From Fragilaria crotonensis (lineage: Eukaryota > Bacillariophyta > Fragilariophyceae > Fragilariales > Fragilariaceae), in contig JAKSYS010000166.1 of NCBI GenBank assembly GCA_022925895.1, positions 1 through 64,000 of the forward strand: a stretch of DNA of 64,000 nucleotides, in the 5' to 3' direction. Of the stretch, positions 9,426-62,506 are shown piece by piece. The notes beneath the pieces were generated by a model, which was not told where the DNA came from, ran no database searches, and saw only the letters and a program-made list of their open reading frames with translations. How positions within the stretch are numbered: position 1 is the stretch's first letter; every line of letters begins with the position of its first letter. The position numbers and the translations under genes were made by a program.

Positions 9426-11847
9426 TCATTCAGACATGGAAGCAGACTTCACACCGAAGTTGGCGTCATAAATCTTGACAGTGTTGACAGTATGGAAGGC
9501 CTCGCACTCAGAGCTCTGCATGTAAGCCAACATGGCAAGCTCTTGCTGTTCGCGCTTGGTCAAGAACAAAGCAGGAGGGTCGCTGTTGTCAGGGTTGCAC
9601 CCACGACAACGCTGCAGTCGCAAACGATGAGCAAAGCGAGGTGAGATGACGAGATGGTAGTTGAATGAGACGATTCCACACACGGCACCTCAAGCTTCGC
9701 AGGACGTCGTCCCAAGTTCGCCGATCGTCACTTACCCAGTAGGTCTTGTATTTGAACGCAAAGGTGGCATCGAGAGCCGCAGCATCTCCCGGGATGACCT
9801 CTTCGGACTCGATGACAACCGACATGGAGCTAATTCCGTAGACCTGATCGTACGAATCGTTGAAGGCATCCATCAAGATCAAACGGCACAATGGGGTGGG
9901 TTCGGCATCCGCATTGTCAATCTCAATCATCACTTCACCGTCCTCGACGCCCACGTTGTTGGCGGCAACATCGACAATCTTGGCAACTTGGGCAGTGACC
10001 TTGCTTTCAGCGCTGGTGCGAGGGATGCGGATGGAGGCACTGTCTTCAACACTCGCCGCATCATAAATCTTGACAGTGTTGACAGTATGAAAGGCCTCGC
10101 ACTCAGAGCTCTGCATGTATGCCAACATGGCAAGCTCTTGCTGTTCGCGCTTGGTCAAGAACAAAGCAGGAGGGTCGCTGTTGTCAGGGTTGCACCCACG
10201 ACAACGCTGCAGTCGCAAACGATGAGCAAAGCGAGGTGAGATGACGAGATGGTAGTTGAATGAGACGTTTCCACACACGGCACCTCAAGCTTCGCAGGAC
10301 GTCGTCCCAAGTTCGCCGATCGTCACTTACCCAGTAGGTCTTGTATTTGAACGCAAAGGTGGCATCGAGAGCCGCAGCATCTCCCGGGAGGACCTCTTCG
10401 GACTCGATGACAACCGACATGGAGCTAATTCCGTAGACCTGATCGTACGAATCGTTGAAGGCATCCATCAAGATCAATCGGCACAATGGGGTGGGTTCGG
10501 CATCCGCATTGTCAATCTCAATCATCACTTCACCGTCCTCGACGCCCACGTTGTTGGCGGCAACATCGACAATCTTGGCAACTTGGGCAGTGACCTTGCT
10601 TTTTTCAGCGCTGGTGCGAGGGATGCGGATGGAGGCACTGTCTTCAACACTCGCCGCATCATAAATCTTGACAGTGTTGACAGTATGAAAGGCCTCGCAC
10701 TCAGAGCTCTGCATGTAAGCCAACATGGCAAGCTCTTGCTGTTCGCGCTTGGTCAAGAACAAAGCAGGAGGGTCGCTGTTGTCAGGGTTGCACCCACGAC
10801 AACGCTGCAGTCGCAAACGATGAGCAAAACGAGGTGAGATGACGAGATGGTAGTTGAATGAGACGTTTCCACACACGGCACCTCAAGCTTCGCAGGACGT
10901 CGTCCCAAGTTCGCCGATCGTCACTTACCCAGTAGGTCTTGTATTTGAACGCAAAGGTGGCATCGAGAGCCGCAGCATCTCCCGGGATGACCTCTTCGGA
11001 CTCGATGACAACCGACATGGAGCTAATTCCGTAGACCTGATCGTACGAATCGTTGAAGGCATCCATCAAGATCAAACGGCACAATGGGGTGGGTTCGGCA
11101 TCCGCATTGTCAATCTCAATCAACACTTCACCGTCCTCGACGCCCACGTTGTTGGCGGCAACATCGACAATCTTGGCAACTTGGGCAGTGACCTTGCTTT
11201 CAGCGCTGGTGCGAGGGATGCGGATGGAGGCACTGTCTTCAACACTCGCCGCATCATAAATCTTGACAGTGTTGACAGTATGGAAGGCCTCGCACTCAGA
11301 GCTCTGCATGTAAGCCAACATGGCAAGCTCTTGCTGTTCGCGCTTGGTCAAGAACAAAGCAGGAGGGTCGCTGTTGTCAGGGTTGCACCCACGACAACGC
11401 TGCAGTCGCAAACGATGAGCAAAACGAGGTGAGATGACGAGATGGTAGTTGAATGTGACGTTTCCACACGGCACCTCAAGCTTCGCAGGACGTCGTCCCA
11501 AGTTCGCCGATCGTCACTTACCCAGTAGGTCTTGTATTTGAACGCAAAGGTGGCATCGAGAGCCGCAGCATCTCCCGGGAGGACCTCTTCGGACTCGATG
11601 ACAACCGACATGGAGCTAATTCCGTAGACCTGATCGTACGAATCGTTGAAGGCATCCATCAAGATCAATCGGCACAATGGGGTGGGTTCAGGTCCGCATT
11701 GTCAATCTCAATCATCACTTCACCGTCCTCGACGCCCACGTTGTTGGTGGCGAGGTCGGCTTTGGATGGCGCGTTGCGAAGGTAGACAGCCGCGACGGAG
11801 TCGACTGCCAACCCAATGGCGATGAACGAGGAGAGGATGATTTTCAT
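9426..11847 (-). CDS. Secreted protein of four near-identical repeat units, one intron per unit
   Basis: Predicted exons: 11847-11468, 11399-10875, 10804-10277, 10206-9682, 9611-9426. The introns are 68, 70, 70 and 70 nt, begin GTG(TG)G, end CTGCAG and lie in phase 0. Each internal exon is one 175-176 residue unit, so splicing keeps the frame. The start gives a signal peptide (hydrophobic core LSSFIAIGLAVDSVAA). A unit holds a CRGCNPDNSDPPALF segment, an acidic NNVGVEDGEVMIEIDNAD segment and a YGISSMSVVIESEE segment. The last unit ends in a different tail, NFGVKSASMSE. The product would have about 714 residues, probably secreted or cell-wall associated; the family was not recognised. The first unit has one base fewer near 11,690 than the others, which would stop translation about 57 residues in: an assembly error or a real break. 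Confidence 0.72.
9455..11740. repeat. Tandem repeat of about 595 bp, close to four copies
   Basis: The word ending in aatggggtggg recurs at 9900, 10495, 11093 and 11686, giving periods of 595, 598 and 593 bp. The 598 period reflects an extra TTT near 10,602 and the 593 period a missing GT at a splice donor near 11,468. Copies differ by only a handful of bases, so the amplification is recent or homogenised by gene conversion. The unit is exactly one exon plus one intron of the minus-strand gene. Confidence 0.93.
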
Positions 11848-36386: not shown

Positions 36387-38544
36387 TCAACCAGTCAAAG
36401 AGTTCTGGTGCTCCTTCAGTCGCTTTTCGTACCAAGGACGGCGCAATTTGCGGAGTGCCCTGCACTCCTTAGAGCGAACCCACGCCTTCGGCATCATCAT
36501 TTGAGCAGCGACAGCTGTTACGGTTCTGGAGAGCCCATCGTCAAGGCCGTAGCGAGCGCTGATAACGCGTCGCTCATCCTCCTCAAGGATACTCAACATC
36601 TCCTTAAGATCATCGTGGAGAAGTCCTCTATCCACACCCTTTTCAGGTGTACATTCGTCAGGGAGAACCCGCGCTGAATCAATGGTGTCTCGAAGAAGAT
36701 CATCGCCTTCATGGCCAAAGTCTTTTGGATTTTGCTTGTATTTTGGGGTCTCGAGAGAAATCGACCGCCTTGTGAGTCGCATCATTTTGTTGTACTTCGA
36801 GACAGACATATCCATTTGTTTCGCCATTTCCTCAGCCGTTGGAGGGCGACCAAGTTCCTGTTCGAGATTCTTTCGGATCTTGCGAATACGGTTGAGCAGG
36901 TTGTGGACGTGAACTGGCAATCGGATGGTGCGAGAATGGTAGGCAATGGAGCGAAATACGGCCTGCTGAATCCACCACGAGGCATAAGTCGAAAATTTAA
37001 ACCCTTTTTTCGGTTCAAACTTTTCCGCTGCTCGCGACAAACCAAGACTGCCCTCTTGGACTAAATCTTGCAGGTTAACTCCGACGTTTGCATATTTCCT
37101 TGAAATACTAAGAACGAGCCTCATATTAGAGGATACCATTCGCTGCTTTGCGTCTTTAGCATCCATCAAAAGCTCCACAAAATCAGTGGGCGTGCCAGTG
37201 TTCATGAGAACAGGCCGAATTCTGGGAGTTCCATGCGGACGAAATTTATTCTCAGTGTCGTCGTAAAACTCGGGGAGTCGTTGCAAGGGATTCTTCTTGG
37301 CTCTCCCCCTGCCTCTTCCGACGCCCATCTCACTTGCCAAACCATTACCCACAAACATGTTCGGGTCTTTCACTTCGAACATGTCGTCGCACCCAAGTGG
37401 TCGCAACTCCGAATATGCTTCTCTGTCAAAGAAGGTTTTGTCTTCAGTTTTGAACCTTAGGATGACAACGGTTAGCTCGGAGTTCTTAAGAAATGGAAAA
37501 TCAAATGCTGGAATTCGCCAGCTAAACTTACCCACATGCGTGAGCCCACTCGACCATTGAAGGCAATCGTTCCAGTCGGAGGGCCAATCCTTCATGGACA
37601 CTCTCGCACTTGACCATGAATTGAACTTGGATTCCGAGCGAGTATTCTTCCTTGGCCGAAAGCAGTTCCGTTCTGTAGTACTTTTGCAAATCAGCAGCAA
37701 CCGTGGTCTTGCGTCGTTTGCTGCTGATAAAGGTGACACTTTCATCAACCTTCTCTTCTAGTGCTTCCTCCTCGCGGCCTCTGGCTTTTGGAAGATTCTT
37801 CATCACTCGTTTTCGTGTTCTCGACTGTCCAACAGACAACTTCGGACCGGGTTTGGATTCGGCAGTCGCTGTAATCCTGCGGCCTCCCTTGGCCCCCCTA
37901 TCGATCTTTCTCGGTCGCCCACGGCCGCGAACTATCGCGGTTTCCGTGACTTCGGGAGGCTCGGTGTGATCAAAGGACGCATCAACATCTTGTTGACCCT
38001 TATCGAAATCGTTCACGTAGGCGGACACTGAAATTTTCCCGTCTTTAAGCGCCTTCGCTCGCTGACGATAATTCAGCATCGTTTCGTATGTCATGGCCCC
38101 GGGAACCATATCGGGCCGCCCTCGGGGCCTTGAATACGTTTTTCGTGACGAGGGGTATAGAAAAGAGTCTGATAGCATTTCTAGGACGTGACCATTCACA
38201 ACAGCAGCCTCATGCTCCTGTTGCTGAGCCATCGCCTCGACAGCACGTTCTCGATCTTTCACGGATACACTTCGTGGCTTGACCTGATGCAGAAGCAAAT
38301 CTTCTTGTTTTTTTCGTGCGCCTAAGGTTGCAGATGATCGTTTCGGCGGTTTCGTTGTTGCAGAGTGAGGAGTAAAGCATGATACCACGGCTATGGAACA
38401 TATTGCTATTGCACATTTCAAAGCAGTCGATGCTGATAAGGGTTGAACTAGTATTCGACGACACTTGTGGTCGAATCGGGTTCGAATGATGCACTCGCGA
38501 CTCGACTCCATAATGGACGTAGAATCCTCGTGGTCTGATATCAT
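36387..38544 (-). CDS. Plastid-type RNA polymerase sigma-70 factor
   Basis: Nuclear gene for a promoter-recognition subunit of the plastid bacterial-type RNA polymerase. Exons 38544-37532 and 37455-36387 with a 76-nt intron (GTAAGT, ...CTAAG) give 693 residues. A hydrophobic segment near residues 41-56 followed by SCFTP resembles the bipartite plastid presequence; an alternative start is Met12. Residues 139-145 (RPRGRPD) and 206-212 (RGRGRPR) contain the AT-hook core, unusual for sigma factors. Region 1.2 is near 300-338 (ELLSAKEEYSLGIQ, then PSMVEWAHACG). Region 2 is near 440-520 (SSNMRLVLSISRKYANVG, DLVQEGSLGL, FSTYASWWIQQAVFRSI), region 3 follows, and region 4 is near 620-680 (DERRVISARYGLDDG, then an HTH ending WVRSKECRALRKLR). 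Splicing is supported because it joins region 1.2 to region 2 in frame. Confidence 0.92.
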
Positions 38545-43298: not shown

Positions 43299-46200
43299 AT
43301 GACAATGACCGCTCAAGCGGCGATCAAGTCTCCTCCCGACCCCGCGGCGTATCATGATCCGAACCACCCAACGTATGGATTTCATACGACTGAGTGGCAT
43401 GACATGCCTCGACCACCAAACCACTCTGACTGGTTTTCAACTGAAGAACGGTACCGCCGCGAAGCCAACGCTCACGCGTATCGACAGCATGGAACACCTC
43501 AGAATTGGTACCGATACCTATCCCTTGGCTTCTTCGCGTATGATGATTGCACAAAGTTTGACACTCTTTGGATGAAGTACAGTTCGGATCCCGTCAACTG
43601 TCACCGTATGGTACTGTACAACTTTATGTATCACGTTGACAGGAAAATGGATATACCACCCAGATTGTCGGCCTGAGCTACCGATGTTTCTCAACCATAT
43701 CTTCAACGATATGCTCCACAATATCTTGCCATCAACACCATCGATATCACATGGAATGATCATATCCGCGGAGATCACGACGTTATGGACATCGAGGCGA
43801 CTCCATGGACGCAGGTCGGAACTAAGAAGCAGAAGACCACACGCAGTCAGTCTCCGCCAGGATCGCCAGGACAAACTGCACTTACCTCCAAGAACTCTAA
43901 CAAGGAAAGCGAGGCACATCCTGGTAACAACCCTGACGGTGGCACCGTAAATTCTTTCCCATTAAAGAAGCACAATGGAGACAACTCCAACAGCGGCTAC
44001 ACTCAAACCCCCACTACCACTCACCACGACAAAACTGCCCCCCCGGACCCTCCGATTGGTGCTCGCCATCCGCATCTACTAGCATCTTCCAACAAAACCA
44101 CCGCATCAGAGTCATCTTACACAGAGGGGAAACAATCCGCCCTGTACCCAGATATCAACATCCCAACAAACGATGGAACGTATCGTCTCACCTTTCGGTG
44201 GAGCCCAAATGGCGATTTCACTCGCTACAACGAACAATCAACTTTCTGGTTGAACGAAGTCCATGCCATGCTTTGCGACCTTTTTCCGGCAGATGATTGT
44301 TTTTTCTATCGATGGGAAAGTATTGACCTTCAACTTCATACGACCGTCACCGCTTTGTCCCCAGGGGAACTACGCGATTTCCTGTCACCAAACATCACGT
44401 TCTTATCCGCAACCTCCCAAATTATTTTTGGGGCGAGAGTGTGCTTTGCATCCAAGTATCCCGGCCAATGGCGATACAAAGAGACAACAGTACAAAAGCT
44501 CGCCGAACATCACGTTCAGGTAAAAATTTCAAACTCCACAACCACAAGCGGAAAAATTGTAACGGCTGGTTATATCTTGTTTAAAGCCGCCAGGACCACC
44601 CATCGTGACCGTTTCCTACAAAGTCTTCGTCAACAACTACCACCCGCGACTCCGTTCTTTGATATCTTACTGTTCCACCGTACACCTATGGAACAAAAAA
44701 TATCACATCTGGTTATTCAATGTGGAGAAACTCACGTGGCTCCCTTGTCACAATCCCTTTCTGCTCTTTTGACGGGAAGGAATTCACCTCTATTCTTATC
44801 GCGCTTAGCACTCACTCAACTGCAACCATTGCAAATTAGTGCCTACTTCGAGATGCAGGATGCCTATGCCAAATCATTGAAGTCATTCCCCTTGTTTCCG
44901 ACCTTAATTAATTTAGATCGCACCAGGACGGAATTCTTTGATGACGGCACGGTTCTTGAACGGTCAACCAGAGCTTGGGCAACCACCATCTTCAAGGATA
45001 GCGCAGAAGTCAGCGCCCGATGCGAGGTTGTGAATGGCGGCTTGGATCAAAAAGCTTACCTTTTAGTTCCTAAACCATTTGCCGCCACCGTAGAGGACCA
45101 TCTACGCCAGTACAGACTTCGCATCAACCCCATCGGACGACGGGAAGCCAGATTTCGTGACAGCTTGCCTGGGCTTCCATCAGTAATCCACATAGACAAC
45201 TCCACACAACAAAATCTGGAATTGTTAGAACTAATGTCATCAATGGAAATGTGGCAGAGAGCCCCTCCTGCCGTTCGAGGACTCTCCGACAAAACGACTG
45301 AAATCGAGGATCAATCCGCCTCAGCCAATGATCGCCGTCAGGAGAAGCCACGGGCCAACAACACCCCCAGCATTGGCAAAAGGAGCGCATGGGGACCAAC
45401 AGGACCGACGAACATCCCTGGCAAAGCATCAAACAGAACTACTACAGCATCCGAGCACGACGACAATACAGCTCTTACACAATCTGCGACACACTCCATA
45501 GGAACACCATCGATGATGTCGTCGGCAACAACGCGCCGACTGAACGAGTTGGAATCGCTCTTTCGTCAACAACAGCAGGAAACAGCCGAACACTCCACAC
45601 TCACGTCACAGACTGCCAGCAGGCTCGAACACGTAGAGTCCAAACTCGGCCGTATTGACGACATCGATGCTATCCTCAACGATAACAGGGACAAATTAGT
45701 CGTTACCATGGAGCGTCAACAGGATTCTCATGTCCAAATTCTCGATTTAAATATTCGAGTGTCCAAACTCATGGATGTTATTGATCGGATGGCATCACGC
45801 ATTGAAACGTTAACGGAAGCTTTGATCACCCACGGAGAAGAAACCGCCACTGAAGAACCTTTCATGCAATCATCTAATCGTCCTTCCCGCCCTCGACCAG
45901 ACGCCAACCGCAGGAGAACACTTGACGAAATGAAAGATCTTGTCGGCACGGAGGTGGATTCTCCACCTGATCCAGAGTCAACAACACAGTATGTCCCTCC
46001 TGAAACAACGCCTCCATCGACACACAGTCCAAGCCAGCAATGATCAACGCCCAATATCTCCACACATACCGTCACTTCACCATCGAAGAAGAAGACCACA
46101 TCCCTTCAGGAAGATCTAGAGGGGATGTCCCTAGAATCAGACGCACCCGAGAGGGAGACGACCAACTTTGTCGACACAACACACCTGCCCGTAACCCAGA

Positions 46201-46325
46201 TGGATTCATCTCTCCAATACGTGTCTCTTATGGATAACTCAGATGACGATTTTTCCACAACTACGCCCGATCTGGACGCTCAATACAATACAAAAAGCGA
46301 TTCAGAGGGAGGCGGAATCAAATGA
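43299..46325 (+). CDS. LINE ORF1 (RNA-binding/gag-like), interrupted by two TGA codons
   Basis: One continuous frame of 1,008 codons apart from TGA at 43674-43676 and 46041-46043. The first part (MTMTAQAAIKSPPDPAAYHD) is His/Tyr/Pro-rich. The middle, from about residue 280, is a folded region (FRWSPNGDFTRYNEQSTFWL and onward) with no named domain recognised. From about 740 a coiled coil (RRLNELESLFRQQQQE, then LEHVESKLGRIDDIDAIL) probably trimerises the protein, as in other LINE ORF1 products. The acidic end finishes in TGA overlapping the ORF2 ATG. If the TGAs are real stops, the longest intact piece is 43785-46043 (752 residues). Confidence 0.75.
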
Positions 46326-49300
46326 CTGCAACACCGTCATTACCCATCGAACGACAGCAGAACAGATCGGAGTTGGAAGCAGGATCTTTTTTCGACCAAA
46401 CTGTTGCCGAACACTCGCTCCATACTCTCCCGACAGCTCCTTTACTTCTCCTCCAGAAACAGCGACCAGGAAGAAAAGCATGGTCGACCCCATCAGATCC
46501 TCATCCTCACAATAGCTACGGCGATACAATTAGAGAAAAACCAAAGAACGGCATTCGAGTATTCTTCCAAAATGTCAAAGGATTGTCACATTCTACCGGT
46601 TTGGAAGACTACAATTATTACATGTCAAGTCTAAAAGCCTACGACGTCGATGTCGCTGGACTAGCGGAAACCAATACCGCGTGGCAACACCCGCATCTTC
46701 AACAAGACTTCCGGAAGATTGTTCATAAGCATTTCCGACAGAGTAAAATCAGCTTTGGGAGTCCCAATCAAACTGTCGATTCCTGTTCCTTAAACGAAAC
46801 GTATCAATCTGGAGGGGTAGCAACAGTGACTCAGGGTACTATGACCGCCAGTATATATGGCAATTCCATCTATGATGATACCGGTCTTGGTCGATGGGCA
46901 GGATTTACACTGCGGGGAAAGGAGGACTACAAACTCAGCATTATAACGGCATACCGGACCTGCGGAGGAAATGTCAAAACATCATCGGTTGGCAGCGTCT
47001 ATAGTCGCGAATACTTATATTTTCGCTCACAAGGCATCGCACACCCAAATCCTCGGAGACTATTCTTCACTCAGATCGGGGAAACAATACGTCGATTGAA
47101 AGAGGCTGGCCACATTATCATTCTAATGATGGATGCAAATTCCGACCTGTCGACCGACCACAGCTTTCAGGAATTCGTAGCCGAATGCGATCTACACGAC
47201 GTCCACCAAAGACATCCACCCCCATCCACGTACATCGGATCAGCACATAGGCGAATTGACTACATTTTTGGATGTGAAACCCTGATTCAAACTCATTATC
47301 GGTCAGGATCCCTATCATATTATGAAGGCCCACATTCAGACCACCGCGGACTATTTGTCGACATAATTCTACCTGAGTTCGCGAAGTATATGTATCAGCA
47401 GAAGATGGCACCAGCATCTCATCGCGCATTACACACGGGTAATCCTGAACTAGTCTCAGCTTACTTGAGCGAGGTAAGGAAAAATTATCAAGCACATAAG
47501 ATGGTCGCGCGCATCAATCATCTATATCAACGTCATGAAACCATGGAGAAGGACGAGCTCACTCGTCTCCTCACCGGCTGGGACGCCGATCAGGGACGAG
47601 CATTAGCGGCAGCCGAGCACAAACTTAGCCGGCCCCCGAAAAAATATCAATGGTCGCCAACTCTCAGAAATTCTGCATTGATAAGAAAGTATTGGGTAAG
47701 GCGTCTGAGGGAGTTAACACATAACGAGTGTTATCACGATTGTTTTCAACGATGGCAACGCGACATCCAAAGGTACGATCCACAGTTTGTACTTCCTCGT
47801 TTAACTGAGGTTTTGTCTATCGAGTCGGTCAGGAGGGAATTAAACTTGGCAACCAAAGCATTTCGTAAGGCGCAATCGAGCTCTGTCGACCTTCGACTAA
47901 AGTCATACGAGGATCTCATCGGGGTATACACAAGTGATGCAAACCCCTCCACAAAGGCAGAATCTCAAAGGAAAGCAAAAGTACTTATGACAACGATTCA
48001 GACCGAAACATGTAGAAAAACATTCGGATGCCTACGATCTGTTGTGAAACCTATAGTGCACTCGGGATTGTCATCGCTCCTGGTCCCTCAACATCCATCG
48101 GATCCACACCACAATGCAAACTCCGGAAAATCTGTGCATGAAATACTTCGGGAGACACCATCAGAAGACCTACAATGGGAGACTGTTATCGACCGCTCTG
48201 ACATGAAACGACATCTTTTGGATTATAATCGGGAAGCCTTTAGAGCGGCAGCAGCCTCCCCATGCGGGCATGGCCTCATCTATAACGCAGTCAAGTTCAC
48301 AGGTTTATCACCTGCAGCAAATGACGTATTGAAAGGCATTGTTCCCCCGGAGTGGCACGGCGACGATCAAGCCTTGAAAGAGTTTCTTGCATCCTTCACA
48401 ATACCCAATCATATTGCGGACGTCGGCCCAATTGGCACCAATATATCGGAAGAGGACGTCACAACAGGGTTTCGCAGATGGCGGGAGACGACCACGACCT
48501 CACCCTCTGGACGTCACCTTGGTCATTATAAGGCTCTCATTCAAGATCCGGAATGCCTCGCATGTCTAACGAAGTTTCTCCACATGACCCTATTCCATGG
48601 AATTGCTATCCCTCGTTGGTGCCAAGCCACTAGCGTATTAATTGAAAAGGATCCAGGTAGACCATGCATAAATCGTCTACGTATTATACATCTGTTCGAG
48701 GCTGACTTCAATTTCTTGCTAAAAATTTTGTGGGGCTCAAGGTTGGTCAAGAGGGCAGTTGAACACGACTTATTACACGATGGACAGTTCGGATCTGTCC
48801 CAGGGAAAACAACGATGGATCCCATTATGTTGACGCAACTTACCACTGATTTATCCAGGATCCTGAAAGTGAACATGGCAAGATTCGACAATGACGCCTC
48901 CGCTTGCTACGACCGGATTATCGTGGCGTTTGGTATGTTAGCGGCACGGCGCTGTGGAATGCCGGAGAACGCCATTCGGACACATTCATCCGCGCTCCAA
49001 CTCATGCAGTATGCAGTAAAGACGGTGTACGGAGTCTCGATTGACAAATACCAAGGTACCGATATCGAGCCTTTGTTTGGCACAGGTCAAGGGAGCGGGG
49101 CCTCTCCAGCAGTGTGGTTGTCCTTGGTGGTCTTATTACTCAATACCCTAGAAAAGTTAGTTCCCGAACGACTCAATTTTGAATCCCCGAACGGACTTTT
49201 GACTCACTCTTGACTCGTCGACGCGTTCGTGGATGATACATCATTGGGTATCAACGATTTTTACTCAGAAATGCCTATGGATGACTTGGTACAGCGCCTT

Positions 49301-52077
49301 CAGGAGATTGCCCAAACATGGGAGCGCATCTTATCTTTATCCGGTGGAGCTCTAAATCTCAAAAAATGCAGTTGGTACATCATGTATTGGGATTGGGTCA
49401 AAGGCCGACCACAATTGAGAGTGCGCGATCAGGATGACCCAATGGTGAACCTAAAAATGTCGTTCACTCCCGTACCGTCACAAGTCATCCCTAGAATGTC
49501 GCTTCATACATCCTCTCGGGTTCTTGGAGTTCAACTATCTCCATCTGGGAATTTCTCGGAGGCGATACGTGTTTACAAAGCGAAGGCTGATTCTTTCGCC
49601 GCCAGAATTAAGTCGCCGCGTATCGGCCTTTCTGAGGCAATTATTTTCCATCGTTCCATTTATGTTCCGACGATGAGGTATGGACTGGCTGCCATTTCGG
49701 CATCTGAGGAGGATTTGGCGGGAATCCAGAGCAAGGTCCTCGCGTCTTTGCTGCAAAAAATGCACGTCAGTGAAAAAATACCAACGTCTATCCGGCATGG
49801 CCCGATTGAGCTCGGAGGGTTAGACTTATATGACATGCGCACAGAACTCGGAATTGAAAGTCTGAAATTCCTCCGCAATTCAGTATTCTCAAACTCGGCG
49901 GCCGGACAAATGATAATCATGAATCTTCAATACTTACAACTCGAGGCAGGAATCGGTGAATCTATCCTGGAAAATCCTCAAATTGACATCTCGTACTTGA
50001 CCCCTTCATGGTTGACTTCCGTCCGAAACTTCCTGTCCAAGCACAACATGTCCATTACTCTGACTGACCAACCCACAATCCAAGCAGCCGGACCACATGA
50101 CCAATTCATTATGCAATCCCAACATTTGTCTCGATATACCCCCGGCAACAGCATGACCTGAATCTGGTCCGCATATACCTTCAAGTGAGCACTCTGGCGG
50201 ATATGACTGATGCGGACCAACCGAACCGAATCCAATTACCTTACTTGGAGGGGCAAAGACCGAGGGAGTGGGAAGAGACCATGACATGGCCCAGACAATC
50301 GACACCATCACATTCTCAGCGGCGATTATGGAAGAGGTTCATCGAATCATCTTATTTAAGATATATTCCATACTGGAAACAAAACCCACTGTATACAGCA
50401 TCACGCACGAGGTCAACTTTTCGTGAATCAATGGAGGCTCCTCCACAGACTGAAACTTGCGCGACCAAGATGCCTCTCCTGGAGTACCTCAAGACCCTAC
50501 CGAGGACGCAACGTCGTCTTGTGGGAGATGTAGTTCAAGTTGCAGACGACGTCCAAGTCTGGCGAGCCTTCCGTTCCAAAGAACGCCTTTTCTTCGCAAC
50601 GGACGGAGGTCTTCTCGGAACTCACGGTACATTCGGATGGATTTTAACATCGTCAAAACATATCTTATTCACATGCGGGGGGCCTGTTGACGGACCGAGG
50701 GACACAGCAAACTCCACAAGGTGCGAATTGAGCGGTATTGCATCTGCTCTACTTGTTATCGCATCGATATCACGCAATTGGGGACTTCCTCATCGTTGCA
50801 CGTTTCGCTGCATCACCGACAGTCGCGCAGCACTCTCAAAGATACACAAACAAATTCGTCGACGCCATGTGGATCATCGACAGCCATATGACTCGGATCT
50901 GCTGCTCCTCATTCGATCTCTTTTAATTGAAATTCGACGAATCGTTGCATTCAAATGGGTCAAAGGTCACCAGGACGCAATCAAATCATACGATAGTCTC
51001 CCTCGTTCAGTCAAATTAAACATTGATGCAGATTTCATTGCTACTCGTTATCGAGAACGGGGAAAACTGAAGTCTACCCCTAAGGTCGATCACTGCTTGG
51101 CGCAACGAGTGTCAATATCAATATTGGGATCCCGCCTAACGAGTCAATACGACTCTTGTATCCGGTATCATATCAACGGCTACCATCTGAAGCAGTATAT
51201 GCAGGCGAGGAAGGATTGGAACGAAGACACCTGGAACACAATCGATTTCGGAACGTTCGGACGACACTGTCGCAGGCTGTCAACATCACACAGAGCGTTT
51301 AACATGAAACTTGTTCATAATCAACTCCCACTCGGCTTTCGACGACATCAACGATCAACCAGCAAGGACGACTCTTTAAAGAAGTGTCCCTGTTGCGGCA
51401 TGGCAGACGAAGATGAACACCATTTGTTCCGATGCATTGCAAATCCATTCCATACAACAGGAATTACGCAACTACGAAGAGATACAGTGAGTGGACCACA
51501 TCCGTTACGAAAACTCCTTACGGAAGGCATCACACATTGGGTGAACACCGGATCTTCCAATTTTCAGGTATGCATAACCGATTATCCATCCCATATGCGA
51601 GAAGCGGTCCGAACCATTACAGCAGAGCAAGCGGCGATTGGCTGGGAAAATGCCATCAAAGGGTTTTTAAGCAAATCTTGGATGGACATCGCATCGATGG
51701 AATACGGGCATACAAACAAGTCGATCACAGAGGGGGAACGCCGCATGCGTCGGTGCATGGATGCACTGTTCAAATTTTCGCGCGGCATATGGAAATCCAG
51801 AAACTCCGTGCTCCACGAATCGGAAGAGGCCGTAAACCAGCGAATGAGATCAGCGACGGCGGATACTATCATATATCTGCATTCACAGGCGGATCAAATA
51901 TGCCATGAAGACCGATACTTATGTGAGCTTCCACTCGACAAGATACTGAGGAGTTCCCCGTCAACTCAACGCCGCTGGCTCAAAAGAATGAAGGACTCAA
52001 AGATACTTCATACACGACGGGGTGAACGCCAAACGCTGATAACGTCCTTTTTTCGTCGTTCTGACCCACCGCCATAA
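46322..52077 (+). CDS. LINE ORF2: APE endonuclease, reverse transcriptase, RNase H
   Basis: ATG overlaps the ORF1 stop (ATGA). The APE-type endonuclease spans about residues 75-345 (VFFQNVKGL, LAETNTAW, MMDANSD, HSDHRGLF). Reverse transcriptase is at about 740-1,080 with FDNDASACYDRI, GTGQGSGASPA and the catalytic FVDDTSL. RNase H begins near 50.59 kb (FFATDGGLLGTHGTFGWIL) with the later ITDSRAAL and WVKGHQDA motifs. Near the C-terminus CPCCGMADEDEHHLFRC is a zinc-binding cluster common in LINE tails. The breaks are a TGA at 49211-49213, directly before VDAFVDD, and a one-base shift at the CCCCC run 50139-50143. Without these it would be about 1,918 residues. Confidence 0.85.
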
Positions 52078-52212: not shown

Positions 52213-54315
52213 GGGAGATCTTGGTAAAGATCATGTCTGAGCAGATTAACTCCAAGAAGTATCTGATGTGTTGGAAGTGTCAGATCATTGGGATTGTCCA
52301 CCAAACCAAGGATACTTCTGCACAGCAGCTCTTTCATCTTTATCCGTGACACTCTAAGCAGACGAAAAGTCTGCAGAGTAGAGTCGTGCAGCATGACGAA
52401 GACTGTTTTCTGTAACTCCTTCATAAACTTCAAGCCCCTAACCAAGTTGGGGACTCCGGCTTCTTGTTACTAGTATCTGCCTTCCTAGTAGTAGATGTAT
52501 GCTGGAATTGTTAAGCAGAACTTACAGTGTGGAGCATGTAGCAAAAGTGCCTATGAGAAAAACAAAAAACCTTTTGGGGATCTGGAAAGTGGGTTTTTAA
52601 TGGATTCAATAGTTGAAATACTAAAACACCTTTATATTCCTCCTTGAACATTCCGTAACCTCATTTCGGTCCATTCCATTATTGACTAGTAGTGCTACGA
52701 TGGTGCAGCCAAAGTTGTGCCAATTGTAAATAGTTGAAATAGAACTTGACTTAAGGATACTTCTGCCGTTGCTTCACACACAACAAGCAAATGTGAAGGA
52801 AAGTAGGATAAGCGATACGCACCAAGAAAACCTCAGTTGTAATTTGGTTTTGCAAGGCCTTGTATGTGCATTCACAAATTTTACCAGTACTATCGATAGT
52901 AGCGCAGATGACAATTGACGAAAAAAGAAATGTTGCGAGTTGCGACCCTTGTCTTCGTTTTTTTTGTGCTACTGCACTACTCGCTACTCGGTGTACGGTT
53001 TCTGTGCACCCAGTACCCAGTACGAGTACCGTTCGCGCCATTCAACGATACGGGCAGGAAGTGTATGTTCATAATTAATAGAGAGGTCCGGGCTACTGTA
53101 ATTTACAGTGTGAAAGCCCTTAACCTTGCGAAGATATAGTTTTTTCTGCAACGTAATTTACACTGTAAAATAGATGTCCGGGTAAACTTGTTTTACAAAC
53201 AAAAAAACAAAACGAAGATTCCTAAGGAGTCTTTCATGATTTTAAAGTAAGATTCCATCCATCTACCGGCGGATGCACCATTTGAGACCTTCCATCAATC
53301 ACTCATCGCGCGACAAGAACGTCACCATGTCGACACGACGATGGTCATCGTTTCTGGAACGCCATTGTTGTCTCGTTCATTAACTTGTTCTCCCTATAGT
53401 CACTAGTACCAAATACTCCAGTACAATATTGGTCTACTAGAGTCTAGAGTCGAATAGTAGTACTCCAAATACACGTCGTTCCAGTCGATGACCTACAGTA
53501 CTACCGGTGGCTACTCTCAAACGTCTGAGTTGGCATGCTGAGTTGTTCGAAAGACGAAGCAAAACATCGCAGTTTGAAACTGGAGCTGCTGCTTCTGCAA
53601 CTTGAAGGCATTGTTATCCATCCATGACAACGGTGACGGTGACGGCGCTCATCCACCTGAGATGACGAGGAGCACCTGTCAATGATCTAGCTTTTTTCGA
53701 TGGGTCTTAAACGGAAAAATCGTCATTTCTTCCATTGTAGCTATCACCCAAATTAAGGGCGTTCACCACATTGCTATTGCAATCATCATCTTTGGCATCA
53801 GCACAGACGACATGGAATTTTTGTGTTTGCGCCCCAGAATCCAGACTTCTGCAAAACATAGCCGCCACATGATTAGTTCGAATGCTTTAACATAAACTTG
53901 TATCCAACTACCTGGTACCACCTTCAACGTTGGTCAATGTAAAGATGCAACGTGGAACTAAGAACTGAATGAATTGAACACGTGGAATGGAATTCTGGTG
54001 ATGTGAATTTGTTTGCAAATGTGCTCTTCAAATGTACGGTATGTCCTGAAATAACATAAGTTTGAGAGCGAGTCCCGTTTCACTTTGAACGGAACATTGG
54101 GCTCAGATCCGGTACTGGGGTTAAAAAGGGAAAATTAGATCCGATTAGGTTTCGGCTAATGGCCAACAAAGGAAAAAATCACTGGGGCGAAATCGAAAAA
54201 CCACGAATCCAAACAACGATTAGTAGATTATCGACCAATCCGACCCCTCTGAATACACACATTTACCACCGCCTGAAAAGCACAGTAGCATCTCATTCAC
54301 TTCACTATATTTACG
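52213..54315. other. Intergenic region downstream of the LINE
   Basis: The first 230 bp continue the older block split by the LINE (minus-strand protein-like frame to 52,445). The rest is AT-rich spacer with a GTAC/CTAG-rich stretch at 53,390-53,510 and the presumed promoter of the DHHC gene. Confidence 0.4.
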
Positions 54316-55513
54316 ATGCAGACAACACGCGAACGGCGTAAAGCAAAGGACGTTACGGTTTTGTCTCCGTCAGGTCTTTCATCAACACCTTCAACACCTC
54401 AAATCGCTGCTGTTCGACGACGAAAGTGGGGCACTGGACCTTTCGATGAGAACTGGTTAAACCTCGATTGCTGCGGGCTCGTGTGTGCTTTTATCACGTA
54501 CTGTTTGCACTGCTACGGTATTTTTGCCGTATGTTTCATACTGATTCCACCTTGGATGTCAGATACAGTAGAAGAGCGACGATCCATTACTCCCTTTGGA
54601 CATACTCACCGTTTGCTCTTCTGCATTGTGGCCGTGCTGGCGTGTGTGGCGCATTTCAAGGCCATGACGACTGATCCGGGTGCAGTTCCACCGGATGCGT
54701 CCCCTTTAGAGTTTCCTGAAGAAACGAACACGGAGGAAGAAGGTGGGGATGTCATCATCTCAACAACGCAAAAAGGGAAGCGTCTCTGTCGACGTTGTAG
54801 GTCTTTCAAGCCACAGCGCGCGCATCATTGCAGGTGAGTTTTCCAACAGTATGCGTCTGTTGAAGTCTTAATCGACCAGTTGCCTAAATTCTTCGAGTCT
54901 CTCTCTGCACGACTCAAATGATTTTCCAGTGTCTGTCGGCGATGCATTGTCAAGATGGATCACCACTGCCCTTGGGTGAACAACTGCGTCGGAATTGGCA
55001 ATCACAAGTATTTTTTTGCTGTTCATCTTCTACACGTTCCTCTCCTGCATCTATAGCATGTCATTGGTGGTCCTTCGATTTGCCATTTGCATGCAGCGGG
55101 CACATCCCTATGTCCACCAGCGAAGCATGCATTGCTTCGACCAACCGACTGATTTGTTGTACATTCTAGGGTTGGTTGCTGAATCGTTACTGTTCGGACT
55201 CTTTACATCTTGCATGATGATTGATCAGTGGGATGTCGTTAACAGCAACGTGACTCACATCGACCGGTTGAAGGGAGAGTCCGGAGGAGATCGTGTGGCT
55301 GGTTTGATCGAAGTTTTTGGACAGCTCAAGGGCAACATGTCTTCTCTCAGATGGGATTGCTTGTCGCCATTTGCGAAGGTTTACTTTCCGAAGGGAATGC
55401 ACGATGATATCATGGGTTTTTGTCGCCCATGTAGCGGCTTTATGGAAACATCCAGTGTCGAAATGAGCACGTCTAGTGGGCGAATGGTACGGAGTGTCGC
55501 TGAGATTGTATAG
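54316..55513 (+). CDS. DHHC-type palmitoyltransferase
   Basis: Membrane S-acyltransferase that palmitoylates Cys on target proteins, usually at the Golgi, ER or plasma membrane. Exons 54316-54833 and 54930-55513 with a 96-nt GTGAGT-CAG intron that splits the Cys-rich domain. The spliced domain reads [36 protein letters not shown] and VGIGNHKYF, with the catalytic DHHC intact. Two membrane helices precede it (about residues 53-80 and 98-116) and two follow. A TPTD-type family motif is seen as TTDPGAVP. The frame shifts at a T7 run (55011-55017): with six T the expected [14 protein letters not shown] helix follows, giving 366 residues. As written, translation would end soon after, removing the last two helices. 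Confidence 0.86.
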
Positions 55514-55926: not shown

Positions 55927-58264
55927 TCAGCACATAATTTTCTCTCCCTTTGCGACGTCTCTCGTTAGGACGTCCAAGTCGAGCATGTGCAGATGTCTGT
56001 TACGAAGCGGACTGATCTTCCTGCTCCAGCTCGTGTCTAACAGCTTTTTGGTCACGCCACAGGAAGAACTACTGGTTGTGCTTTTTTGTCCGAAGTAGGA
56101 CGCAATCTCTCCGAAAGCTGTCGCGATAAGCTCTTGCCGGGGAAACGAAGTCGCGGGAAGATTCGAATCCGTATTGTGATAAACGACAGATCCCTTCGAC
56201 AGACTCAATTTCGCGATAAGTGTGGCCTCCCCTTCTCCCGAAACTCTTTCAAAGGCGTCAGACCAAGACGTCACGCCGTTGACGTTGCGAAAAATTCGGC
56301 ACTCCTCTGGCTCAGGATATTGACGGCAGTGAGCTGTTTCCCAAGACTTGTAGGGCCGTTGATAATCCTGCATGGTCGCTCCGTCAAAGTATTTAAGTGA
56401 AGACTCGCCAGATTTCGTGGGAAGAAGCCTTTCTCGGATTCGAAGGTTGATCTGAGCTTCGTTTCGATTCCATTCCTTGGCACACGCCTCAGACTTGCAG
56501 GCAGCGAGATAGCTCCAGTCGTATTTGAAGTCGCTGTGAATGTCGTGGTAGATAAACACGTGTTGGAACCCAACGGCTTCGATCGTTTGGAACAGACTCG
56601 CCCTATTCTTGTTTATTCCAAACTGTTCACCATAGGCAGCACTACGTGGAGTCATACCAAGCTGCACAACGAGAATGCCATCTTCCGTCAGCGCCTCATT
56701 CATGGTTCGCCAAAATGTTTATCCTGGTACAATTGAACGGCGAAGGTGACATTGTCCTCAGGGTCCAACGCATCCATAACAATGACATCAAAAGGGTTAG
56801 TCTTCAATTCCTCAGGGACGTCGCCGTCGGTGTTGAATCGGTTCACAAACCACCCAAAGGCATCTTCACACCTTAAATCAGTCCTTTCGTCGTCGAAACA
56901 ATTGTCACTTCCGAAACCGGAGCAGTTGTTCATTTTTGGTAGCCAATCACGAGCAGCCTGGACGATTCCAGGGTCAATTTCGATCATCATGCACACCTCA
57001 ATAGACTTGTGCTTCAGAATCTCTCGAAGAGTCGCGCCCTCACCACCTCCTACAATGGCGGCGCGCTTTGGTGCACGAGTGTGAGCAAACATAGCCGGAT
57101 GAACAAGTGCCTCGTGGTAGGCCTCGTCTCCCTTCAAAGTGCTCTGCATAACCCCATCCATGAAGAGCAGTCGGTTGGGAGCAAACAGTTCTGGATGCTG
57201 GGTGTAATAATTGTCGGCTCCCGCTTCTTGGCTCCTCTCGTATGAGTCAACGGATTGAAGAGTGGTGTGGAGTGTTTCCCATACATGAATTGCTTGAAAG
57301 TCAGTTTCGGTGGACCCAATCTGTGTGAAACAACATGTTAGAAAGCCGCCAATGCAAGGCATTTATGCAGACTCAGGCAACTACTAACCTCCTTCTTGTA
57401 GTAATTCCGATCCTTCTCATGCAGTAAGAACTCAGACAGGTCATGTTCGAACTTCGTTCCTTGGTATTCGAAAACAGCTCGAAGGGCGTGGCGAAAGAGT
57501 GCTCGTTTCTTGTCACCTACTCCAAAGTACGTTTCAAGAATAGGTACCGCGTCGAGGAGATGGTTATGCATGCCTGCAGAGTAAAGATCCACCGAACAGG
57601 AAAGATTTTCTGGGTCCGTTGCGACTATCATGTGGCTACCACCAGTCAGCACCGCAACGCATGTAACAGCCACAAGCTTCTGGCAATGCAATGACAAGAT
57701 CGCGAGATCGAAATCCGTGGAAACGTCCCAAATGGTGTCCATGATGGCGTCTTGGATCCGGCTTTGATCAGCCAAGAAATCCGCATCCAACCTTTGAAAC
57801 TCCATAATGACCTGAAACGCAAATGGGCCGTCACGACCATCCGCTTTGGACGGGGCGCCGCCTCCATACTGTCCGTAACCTTTGGCGAAGAAAATTTCAT
57901 CCAGAATTAGCTCGTCAATCGCAGTGCATTGAGTTTCCTCACACGAGGAGGCCACGACTTTCACCAATGATCTTTGGTATCGGGCTGTTGATCGAAGGAA
58001 TTCTTGTGTCATGAGCGAAGCGGAGCCCATGGACGAGAGTGCCAATCGGGAATTCAAAAGTGTGGCAAATTGCGTCTTGTACATCGTACCAGCAAAATAG
58101 GAGAGCACAGCTACAACAAGAAGTGAAATCATAAAGAAAAATGAGGACACCTGCAACCCAGGGTGCGACGCGCACATCTCAACCTTGGTGTCATCTATGA
58201 TCGGAATGAACTTTCCACATATAACAACAGTATTAGGGCTCGAAGTCCTCTTTGGATCAGACAT
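55927..58264 (-). CDS. Membrane-anchored AdoMetDC-like/aminopropyltransferase (spermidine synthase) fusion
   Basis: Exons 58264-57389 and 57320-55927, 68-nt intron, about 756 residues. A membrane helix at residues 40-61 (FFFMISLLVVAVLSYFAG) makes a type II protein with its domains in the ER/Golgi or vesicle lumen. Residues 108-250 resemble bacterial-type AdoMet decarboxylase (SpeD): GGSHMIVATDPE and VDLYSAG align with ESHLxIHTxPE and VDVFTCG. The pyruvoyl-forming Ser is kept, but the catalytic His and Cys are both Ala, so this domain is probably inactive. Residues 300-560 are spermidine synthase-like: LLFMDGVMQST, DEAYHEALVHP, AAIVGGGEGATLRE, MIEIDPGIVQ and VMDALDPED. The last 200 residues are unassigned. 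The frame shifts at AAAA 56712-56715 (plus strand): one more A would give the expected FWRTMNEALTEDG. Such fusions have been proposed to make long-chain polyamines for silica deposition. Confidence 0.85.
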
Positions 58265-58840: not shown

Positions 58841-59029
58841 TTCTGTACTACGTACCAGTATCGTATTCTCTGTTTTCAACAATGTATGCTGCTATGTTCA
58901 TACCCTACAGTGCAATGTGTAAGACATGCTGCACATTTTCGTAGGCGAGCGATCTCCTACTAGCTACAGTAGTGATACTACTACCGGTAGTACTATACCA
59001 CTAGCACCACTACTGTACTGGTCCCACTA

Positions 59030-59110
59030 CCAGTACCAGTACCACTACCACTACCACTACCACTACCACTACCACTACCACTACCAGTACAAGTACCAGT
59101 ATCAGTACCA
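59030..59110. repeat. ACCACT simple repeat
   Basis: Runs of taccac/ccagta on the plus strand, mirrored by GGTAGT-type sequence near the other end of the element. Apparent frames rich in Tyr and His here are translations of this repeat. Confidence 0.8.
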
Positions 59111-62100
59111 CCACCACTACTGCACAAGTGCTACTGCTAAACCAGTACCACTGCCACTACCAGTCACAGTACCACTACCACAACAGCCGCTCCACTAACA
59201 CTACAAATACCACTACCAGAACAATCAACCCCGCAGCTTCTTTTCCAGGGAACTCGTCTATAATTCATGTCGGCACAATGTGTACCTTGCTGTGTTGCTA
59301 TTTGACAATGTCAACAAGTCCACACTCCAAGTCTCTGTTGTAAGATTCAGGATTTTTGAAATGGATTCACTCAAAAAGGTTGTGTCACAATTCATGCGAC
59401 ATTCTTTACTTCATACTGGAGACTTCAAGCTAGTAGCCATTGGATAAATTTCAACAAATCTTTGAGTAGATCACTGCATCTTAAAACAAGCAGTTGAGAT
59501 CCAATTTCATGGCAATTGGTCAGGCATGATATCATTATGATGTCTGTGGTACACTTGTTGACAAAGATATTTGTTCTGAGGCTCCAGAAGATGCAAATCC
59601 TCAACAGTCTTGGCAGTGAAGAGACCGCACATTCCAGATACTGTGAACCTGCTGATGTGATGCATGGTATTGACCACCCTCTTTGTATTGGATTCATGCT
59701 AGATCACTTGACGGTGTTTTGGCACAAGTGATTGTAGGTTTTTTGGCTTGGAGCAACAGTCACTCCAATCAAGCAAACTAAGTGGTGACACAATGTGGGT
59801 TATTGTCTTGCAGCACATATCTCAGATTTGCCTTCTGCCACAAAATACACCAGCAAGGCAACCACCACTTTCCTAGCCAAAATTGCAAAAGGAGAGGAAG
59901 ATGCTACACAAGAAATGGTGCTCCTTACCCGCATGGAAGGAGAAGAAGAAAGTTTTGAGTGCAACAATGATTCAGCAGGTGCATCCATTGACGCGTATAG
60001 GAGACAAAATGGAAAATATTCCAGGTTTAACAACAACAACAACAACTTGCTGTGCACCTCCCACAACATTGCCACACCCCTCCAGCAATGTAGGCAAATT
60101 GACAAGAGAAGTAACAAAAATTAATGATTTGATGCCATTCAGACATAGCAATTGTATTGCAGAGAAGATGGCATCGGCACCAAACATGGAGCTCCTCAAA
60201 GGAAAGAAGCACCCATTGCTGCTCCTGCTGTTTCTACTGGAAAGTGAGAAATGCCGAGTACCGGTAGAATGAAAGTTGGTAAAGGTAAAACTGTGGAAAG
60301 GGGCTTGACCCATCTTTCTCACAAGCACCAGCTGCTGGCTGCTGTGACAGCTACAACAGCAGCAAAGAAGAAGGCAGCTAAGTGAAAGAAGAAGGTTGGT
60401 GCATCATCTGACAAGCAAAATGTGCTATTGGAGGAATTAAAGTCCAATACATGAAAGTAGGAACAAAGATGGATGCTTATCTAAGTGACAACACTGATGA
60501 TGAAGACTACGTTGCCAAGGTACGCAAAACTGTAGACGTTTAATTCAAGATACTATGAAAACAAGCCTATCAGCAAGTTGCGGTTGTCATTCTCTCTACG
60601 CACAAAACTTGTCTACAAATGGAGGTTCACAAGACAGAGAATAAGATTTCCATGGATGTAACTGAGGCAGTATTTTGAGTGTTGTAATCATATAAGAACA
60701 AGTTGAGCCTGCATCTTGCAGGAGAAAAGCTCAGTCTGAAGAAGTTGGGAACCACTGCTATTTTATTATTGCAATTACTGTGGATGTTGTTGAAATCACA
60801 AGTTCTTGAAGGTTTTACCTGGTGATTGCTCTGTGGACTCAAATAATAGTGACATTGCATTCTTTTCAAAGTTTCAATATCCATGTTAGCAAAAATTTTG
60901 AGAAGACAGTTTTGAGAGAACTTGTTTGATCACACAATTTGACCAACAAGGATCATAGAGTTGCACACAAAATGTGATGTCCATAGGATCAGAACTCAAG
61001 AATTGGAAGATTGTTTAGCTTCTAATTATGCTGTCGCCCGCTATTGTAGGGTTCAATACAAAGGACCTGCAGCACACTCCTTTAATCATACCAACTTAAA
61101 TGATCATGGAGTTGAGGTGGACGTGGCTGCTGAAGTTGAAGTGGATGTGGCTGCTGAAGTTGAGGAGGAGAGTCCTATTGAAGTTCCAATAGTTTTAATG
61201 TTGAAGATGCATCAAATTTTTGCGCGCAGGGTTTTGGTGTGGATGATGATAACAAACCTACCCCAGGATGAGGACAACATTGAAGACTGTGATTTTTCTT
61301 TGGCTGGGGTGAGATGACTCTAGATGAAAGGAGGAAAGCCGCTTTGAGCTGATCCAAACATCTCAAATTCAATATTGATGTTCCTCCTCCCTTGAAGCAT
61401 CCATCCCACTCTGTCAATCAGTTGATTGATGCACTCAATAGTCACACACAGGCTTGCTCCAGTCCTGGGTGGGTGAAGTGTCTTGACAAGAGCGTGTCTG
61501 TTTGGACGAACCAATGGATATGCCTTGGATGGATGTTTGTTCCAAGAAAACCCCACCCAATGTTTGCTTAACTCCATTCCAGGACCAATGTTACTCACCA
61601 TTTCACATCATACAGCACTCTTATGGATACGTAGACACAACAACACTGCATTTTGCTTAATTGATGCCAGCACCATAAGCATCACCAACTTCAGCAGCAA
61701 GAAACGGTATTGATGCACTCTTCACAACTAGCTACCTTTTGATTCCCTAAGAATTCAGTTCAATCTGCTATAATGTGCGCTCCAATGAATCATATGCCAA
61801 GTCAATTCCATCTTCAGTTACTCTTTTAGTCTCTGAAATGACAAACAATCAGTATTGTCATCAGTATTTGTCCTTCTAAAGAATGTAGGACAATCTTTAG
61901 CATTCACAGTCAATAGGAAACGACCATCACTATAGTTTTGCCGCTATTTACGGACCCCAAAATCAGGGCAATGTTGCCAATGAGTGCCCAAAAGACTTGT
62001 AACTTGTTGACATTGTCAAATTGCAGCACAGCAAGTTACACAGTGTGCCAACATGGATTACAGAGACATGAATTATACATGAGTCCCCAGGAAGGGAAGC

Positions 62101-62506
62101 CACAGGAGGGGTTGGGTTGTAGTGGAAGTGGTAGTGGTAATGGTAGCGTTACTGTTACTGTTAGTGATACTGTTAATGGCAGTGGTAATGTTTATGGTAG
62201 TGGTACTGTTAATGGTAGTGGTACTGTTAACAGTACAAAGCGGTACTGTTAATGGTTTTGCCAGTGGTACTAGTACTGGAAAGTAGTAGCACATGCACAG
62301 TAATCTGGTATTGGTACTGCTACAGTAGAGGTAGTTGTACAGTACTGGTACTGGAGTACTAGTATCGGTGCTAGTAGCTGTAGAAGTATACTGCTACCGT
62401 TAGTAGTCACGCTACTGTAGCTAGTACTGGTATGGTAAGATCGGACACCTATGTACAAAAATGTGCGGCATGTCGTACTGTACATTCATTGTTGTATAAC
62501 CAACAG

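Follow-up and report, generated by a model that had tools for sequence, protein, structure and literature searches.

A gene for a putative membrane-anchored polyamine-synthase fusion

Within a 64,000-nucleotide stretch of a Fragilaria crotonensis contig, called the window below, we found a gene that probably encodes a membrane-anchored diatom AdoMetDC-aminopropyltransferase fusion, in which the decarboxylase-like half would no longer form a pyruvoyl group and would act as a scaffold for a working aminopropyltransferase. The spliced translation yields a minus-strand gene with two exons and a 68-bp intron, so that the original prediction of a gene at 55927-58264 was borne out. From the N-terminus, the product has a membrane helix at residues 40-59 and then a class 1b AdoMetDC (SpeD) domain; the aminopropyltransferase (APT) domain follows, and the protein closes with a tail of about 140 residues. 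Exon 1 contributes 292 aa, counted from the first Met. The features of the gene are as follows.

57389..58264, minus strand: exon 1, with N-terminus, transmembrane helix, linker and SpeD-like domain (spliced translation)
58088..58147, minus strand: transmembrane helix, residues 40-59 (Kyte-Doolittle mean up to 2.27 over 19 residues)
57515..57811, minus strand: SpeD (class 1b AdoMetDC) domain, residues 152-250 (Pfam AdoMet_dc, E 8.6e-7, 29.7 bits against a cut-off of 25)
57635..57637, minus strand: position of the pyruvoyl-forming Ser, residue 210, kept (alignments)
57620..57622, minus strand: position of the catalytic His (T. maritima H68), residue 215, Ala here (alignments; role from PMC10407285)
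57575..57577, minus strand: position of the catalytic Cys (T. maritima C83), residue 230, Ala here (alignments; role from PMC10407285)
57321..57388, minus strand: intron, 68 bp, GT..AG (spliced translation)
56703..57320, minus strand: exon 2, with linker and first part of the APT domain, including GGGEGAT, YHE and DALDP (Pfam Spermine_synth, E 3.6e-23; NCBIfam, E 2.1e-33)
56700..56720, minus strand: reading-frame change within the APT domain, at a short T run (three-frame translation)
55927..56718, minus strand: second frame, with the remaining APT domain and then the tail, up to the stop (alignment to bacterial APT C-termini; three-frame translation)
55930..56352, minus strand: C-terminal tail, about 140 aa with an estimated start, SET-like motifs only (no Pfam family above cut-off)

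The SpeD domain is followed by the APT domain within one gene, as seen from the Pfam matches and the modelled SpeD fold, with one frame change inside the APT part. The earlier description of one gene joining an anchor helix to a SpeD-like and a spermidine synthase domain thus stands for the helix and for both domains, which were recovered by hydropathy and by Pfam profiles above their cut-offs for each half, but not for a continuous coding frame.

The SpeD half has a predicted SpeD fold and lacks catalytic residues

The NCBIfam adenosylmethionine decarboxylase model matched exon 1 with E 1.4e-5 and 25.4 bits, below its cut-off of 75.65. Identity between the SpeD half and 11 aligned SpeDs from bacteria and phage contigs ranged from 15 to 27%. 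A phmmer search with exon 1 gave no match among PDB sequences up to E 1, and none was obtained for exon 1 in phage records and viral contigs or for the SpeD half in 198 bacterial genomes, the latter search being run without a positive control.

An AF2 model of residues 84-292, built with eight SpeD relatives, reached a mean pLDDT of 63.3, with the blocks of the SpeD core at 81-95 and with low confidence for residues 1-63 of the model and for its C-terminal end. In Foldseek comparisons the model matched T. maritima SpeD (1tmi; E 8.9e-8, rmsd 1.8, target TM 0.86, 16% identity) and A. aeolicus SpeD (2iii; E 7.9e-8), which upholds the assignment to SpeD against the possibility, raised with the original prediction, that a model would fail to superpose. 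The match to human spermine synthase was loose, with query TM 0.32-0.40 and rmsd 3.9-8.2 overall; for 3c6k, E was 6.5e-5 at best, with query TM 0.34-0.40 and rmsd 3.9-7.6.

S63, H68 and C83 of the T. maritima enzyme are essential for self-processing, and H68 and C83 also take part in catalysis (PMC10407285). In the alignments to SpeD relatives these positions read Ser, Ala and Ala in the SpeD half, which therefore lacks the full triad of an active class 1b AdoMetDC; the reading of a retained Ser in GGSH with Ala at both the His and the Cys position is confirmed. In addition, Gly replaces the Glu that precedes the pyruvoyl Ser. Among 20 bacterial SpeD matches, chosen at rough steps down about 141 profile matches and all from one phylum, the Ser is kept in 18, the His in 19 and the Cys in 18. 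Both His and Cys are absent from just one of the 20, so the double loss is uncommon but not unique. The 11-row SpeD alignment took in seven of 16 viral loci; L011 was dropped because of a stop in the stretch, and the other eight were omitted by choice. The patterns used to find these viral loci include HTWPEYGY, so rows keeping the His are favoured in that set; the 20 bacterial rows were found by profile instead.

Two of these 20 bacterial SpeD relatives carry substitutions of their own at the S63/H68/C83 positions, namely Ala-His-Gly in L073 (G132:C12:10578-10901; open frame of 220 aa) and Gly-Ala-Tyr in L075 (G008:C36:2840-3148; open frame of 219 aa). Each of the two genomes carries a second SpeD match.

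From these residues, AdoMetDC activity of the SpeD half appears unlikely. A different possibility is that the SpeD half has switched to decarboxylation of ornithine or arginine, so that the protein would make both acceptor and product. SpeD homologues with ADC or ODC activity are widespread, and an ADC-type clade includes two stramenopile algae (PMC10407285). However, the authors of that study expected S63, H68 and C83 to be conserved across AdoMetDC, ADC and ODC forms, which is an expectation and not a result, and two of these three residues are Ala here. Moreover, a Pro described as fully conserved in AdoMetDC and not in ADC, for which the source names no position, may be the Pro of TWPE that is kept in the window gene (PMC10407285). 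On account of the two lost residues, we rate such a switch as very improbable; if the published expectation holds, ODC or ADC activity is unlikely as well.

The APT half keeps the motifs of an aminopropyltransferase

The Pfam Spermine_synth match in exon 2 (E 3.6e-23) lies above its cut-off, and the NCBIfam polyamine aminopropyltransferase model gives an even lower E-value (2.1e-33), yet a score under the cut-off of that model. In the alignment, GGGEGATLRE, YHE and the two Asp residues of the D..DP motif (DALDP) are all present in the APT half; we take them to be aminopropyltransferase motifs, the one for binding of dcAdoMet among them. The motif set expected of an aminopropyltransferase is thus present, and we regard the half as a putative active enzyme.

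Exon 2 matched 25 PDB sequences at E up to 1e-3 (best 4.2e-22), all of them annotated as spermidine synthase, polyamine aminopropyltransferase or thermospermine synthase, apart from one with a gene name only; human spermine synthase was absent from these 25. Matches were found in 151 of 282 genomes from the phylum of the bacterial APT L002, a Polyangia record, the best with E 2.3e-23 and 38% identity. Relatives of exon 2 were present in three of 18 stretches of genome contigs, and its two pattern matches in viral contigs included no relative. The second frame matched only two PDB sequences, with E 0.19 and 1.3, and had no match in viral contigs.

A reading-frame change inside the APT domain

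The frame of exon 2 ends in a stop at 56702-56700, and the remaining APT domain is encoded from 56718 onward in a different frame, which closes with the stop at 55929-55927 (three-frame translation). Homology to APTs spans the break, as the start of the second frame, EALTEDGILVVQLG, aligns with NVMAEDGIVVVQSG of L002. Two ways of reading through the break were considered and rejected by eye: there is no usual slippery sequence for a programmed frameshift, and no GT..AG pair of usable length for a mini-intron.

A DHHC palmitoyltransferase gene adjoins the fusion gene at 54289-55513 on the plus strand. Here, too, the frame seems to shift at a T run, near 55010, and the downstream frame has a Pfam DHHC match with E 1.2e-5, just under cut-off. 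In two other genes of the window with exons in different frames, ordinary introns lie at those places (by eye). The T-run frame change in the fusion gene together with the apparent one in its DHHC neighbour led us to suspect an assembly error, and the two breaks are likely errors of this kind.

The break could also belong to a decaying pseudogene of the diatom AdoMetDC-APT family, with the lost catalytic residues and the frame change both being decay. Besides the frame change inside the APT domain, the loss of Glu, His and Cys in the SpeD half and a tail recognised by no family model would agree with this. We nevertheless consider decay rather unlikely, since there is a single frame change, located at a short T run, and the neighbouring DHHC gene seems to be affected in the same way, pointing to the assembly. 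Apart from this one change, no stop interrupts the roughly 760 codons of the gene, its intron is bounded by GT..AG, and the APT motifs are preserved.

The C-terminal tail

The tail had been described as 200 unassigned residues. Its length is nearer 140, estimated from the end of the last APT element, but Pfam indeed assigns no family to it. By eye, GEGEATLIAKLSLSKGSVV and RDVAKGEKI in the tail resemble the two ends of a SET domain. As a SET methyltransferase the tail was rejected: there was no Pfam SET match at E up to 10, and the score against a SET profile, built from nine bacterial SET sequences out of 12 loci, was negative (-0.6 bits, with more than 50 of 500 shuffles scoring higher). Both SET-like motifs occurred in order in 0 of 200,000 shuffles of the tail, with patterns that were written after viewing it; the first pattern matches none and the second five of the nine bacterial SET sequences. 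Owing to this post hoc choice and the poor match to the nine sequences, little weight was given to the count of the motif pair. A model of the tail from the single sequence, with no relatives, had a mean pLDDT of 37.6.

Some diatom fusions bear a histone-methyltransferase domain (PMC12029483; PMC3820600), and for SET proteins specific to diatoms, long-chain polyamines or wall proteins have been put forward as targets (PMC11554505; PMC11151724). The window gene differs from the fusions with a histone-methyltransferase domain in that its tail scores as no SET. A putative degenerate SET-like domain in the tail is only a lead.

The membrane helix and the predicted side of the enzyme

In addition to the helix at residues 40-59, a second hydrophobic stretch is found near residues 187-216 (Kyte-Doolittle mean 1.93), but this lies within the SpeD fold. 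The 15 residues that precede the helix sum to a net charge of -1 and the 15 that follow to +2, and the same tendency holds with flanks of 10, 20 and 25 residues. According to the positive-inside rule, the more positive flank of a membrane helix faces the cytosol, so that the catalytic part is predicted on the cytosolic side. We therefore favour a cytosolic-facing enzyme, the charge rule being a weak predictor, over the lumenal topology of the original prediction, which these charges did not bear out.

A position of the enzyme on the lumenal side of the silica deposition vesicle or of another organelle would be compatible with a scaffold role of the SpeD half, and a single N-terminal hydrophobic helix can serve as a signal anchor. 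N-glycosylation sequons are also present, one in the SpeD half and two in exon 2. Against a lumenal position, the charge balance places the C-terminal side in the cytosol for all four flank lengths, and AdoMet and dcAdoMet are made in the cytosol. Furthermore, tagged PtSDS1, PtSDS2 and PtSAMDC, none being this protein, are cytoplasmic (PMC10968388). Taken as a whole, a lumenal enzyme seems doubtful to us.

Other features of the window

A light-harvesting gene in the window has an N-terminus reading ASAF, presumably a plastid-targeting motif. This gene and the short introns in window genes fit a diatom or a related alga. A sigma-70 factor at 36390-37757 on the minus strand, with regions 2, 3 and 4 above cut-offs, is probably a nuclear-encoded plastid sigma factor. 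At 43677-52074 on the plus strand, long open frames, one of them with a weak RNase H match under cut-off, look like a putative retroelement.

Several repeats were observed as well. At 9463-11689, copies recur about 595 bases apart, comprising a 300-base family (three near-identical copies and one at 76%) and a 225-base family (four copies at 99-100%), with similar open frames on both strands. Finally, a CCACTA array and a GTAGTG array, GTAGTG being the CCACTA unit on the other strand, are found at 59006-59218 and 62119-62230, about 3 kb apart and both on the 5' side of the fusion gene.

Relationship to known fusions and dead decarboxylase relatives

Diatom AdoMetDC-aminopropyltransferase fusions were reportedly described by Michael in 2011 (FEBS Lett 585:2627), and the gene appears to be a variant of this already published family. 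Like the window gene, these fusions join a bacterial-type SpeD to a bacterial-type APT. Compared with the fusions as known from citing papers, the window gene differs in having Ala at both catalytic SpeD positions and an N-terminal membrane helix. Nitzschia inconspicua has 32 fusion proteins that contain an APT domain (PMC12803844), P. tricornutum has three fusion genes plus a separate SAMDC (PMC10968388), and one fusion of Entomoneis vertebralis is up-regulated with aluminium (PMC12533330). A 2025 paper on spermine synthase evolution calls for further study of the diatom fusion proteins (PMC12803844). Among the literature matches listed, which reach the 2011 account through later papers, none describes a diatom fusion whose SpeD half is dead.

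The combination of a dead SpeD-like N-domain and an APT is shared with animal spermine synthase (human SMS, 3c6k), in which AdoMetDC function was lost and a structural role in dimer formation remains (PMC12803844). The APT half of the window gene is not close to that of SMS, which was missing from the PDB matches to exon 2, and the likeness therefore reflects a shared design, with common descent not indicated. To our knowledge, SMS has no membrane helix.

Bacterial SpeD-SpeE fusions (L032-L034, 430-440 aa, and the shorter L035, 372 aa) have the same domain order in one open frame. In contrast to the window gene, their SpeD residues are intact, with Ser, His and Cys kept in L032-L034, so the dead half is not a feature of those bacterial fusions. 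Their APT halves carry GGGDGG, whereas the window APT is of the GEGA type. Descent from L032-L035 was considered and rejected: in an 18-row APT tree the window APT grouped instead with stand-alone GEGA-type APTs (support 89/84, not a starred branch), a placement that is unsure because its end branch is long (2.45 changes per column) and it belongs to no starred set. A separate bacterial locus, L036 (G167:C55:9000-12500), has a SpeD domain opening a 436-aa frame, the remainder of which does not by eye look like an aminopropyltransferase.

The AdoMetDC prozyme of trypanosomes is a protein in its own right, belongs to the eukaryotic AdoMetDC class and is not known to be fused to an APT. Like the SpeD half of the window gene, it is a catalytically dead AdoMetDC relative, and it relieves the autoinhibition of its partner (PMC5201418). 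By analogy, the SpeD half could be a regulatory partner that activates an AdoMetDC or an active fusion paralogue via a mixed dimer, and the several fusion paralogues per diatom (PMC12803844; PMC10968388) would fit this. As human spermine synthase illustrates, however, a structural role alone suffices to explain a dead half that is kept, and we consider a prozyme-like function quite unlikely.

A scaffold model and its implications

The lost residues, the modelled fold and the precedent of human spermine synthase support the proposal, already made in the original prediction, that the dead SpeD half serves as a scaffold for an active APT. In this scaffold model, the SpeD half would no longer form the pyruvoyl cofactor and would remain a folded scaffold for the APT, probably in dimer formation, holding the APT domains together as in human spermine synthase. 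It would not self-cleave at Ser210 and the chain would stay whole, which would leave the APT half covalently joined to its membrane anchor. As the SpeD half would be dead, dcAdoMet would have to come from another AdoMetDC in the cell. The product would probably be a longer polyamine that goes into the long-chain polyamines of the silica wall, a link that has been published as a proposal for the diatom fusion family.

One could go further and suppose that diatoms independently reached the design of human spermine synthase, with a bacterial SpeD half converted to a scaffold that does not cleave itself, and that a membrane anchor was added. Loss of self-cleavage would then have been selected to tie the APT to a membrane, which may be that of the silica deposition vesicle, and the enzyme would lie on its cytosolic side. 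We offer this scenario as speculative and on balance improbable.

The scaffold model bears on the synthesis of the silica-precipitating long-chain polyamines in diatoms. Should a dead SpeD half and a membrane anchor indeed occur together in some fusions, the view that every fusion both produces and consumes its own dcAdoMet would fail for these members, and a division of labour between the fusion paralogues, open to testing, would follow.
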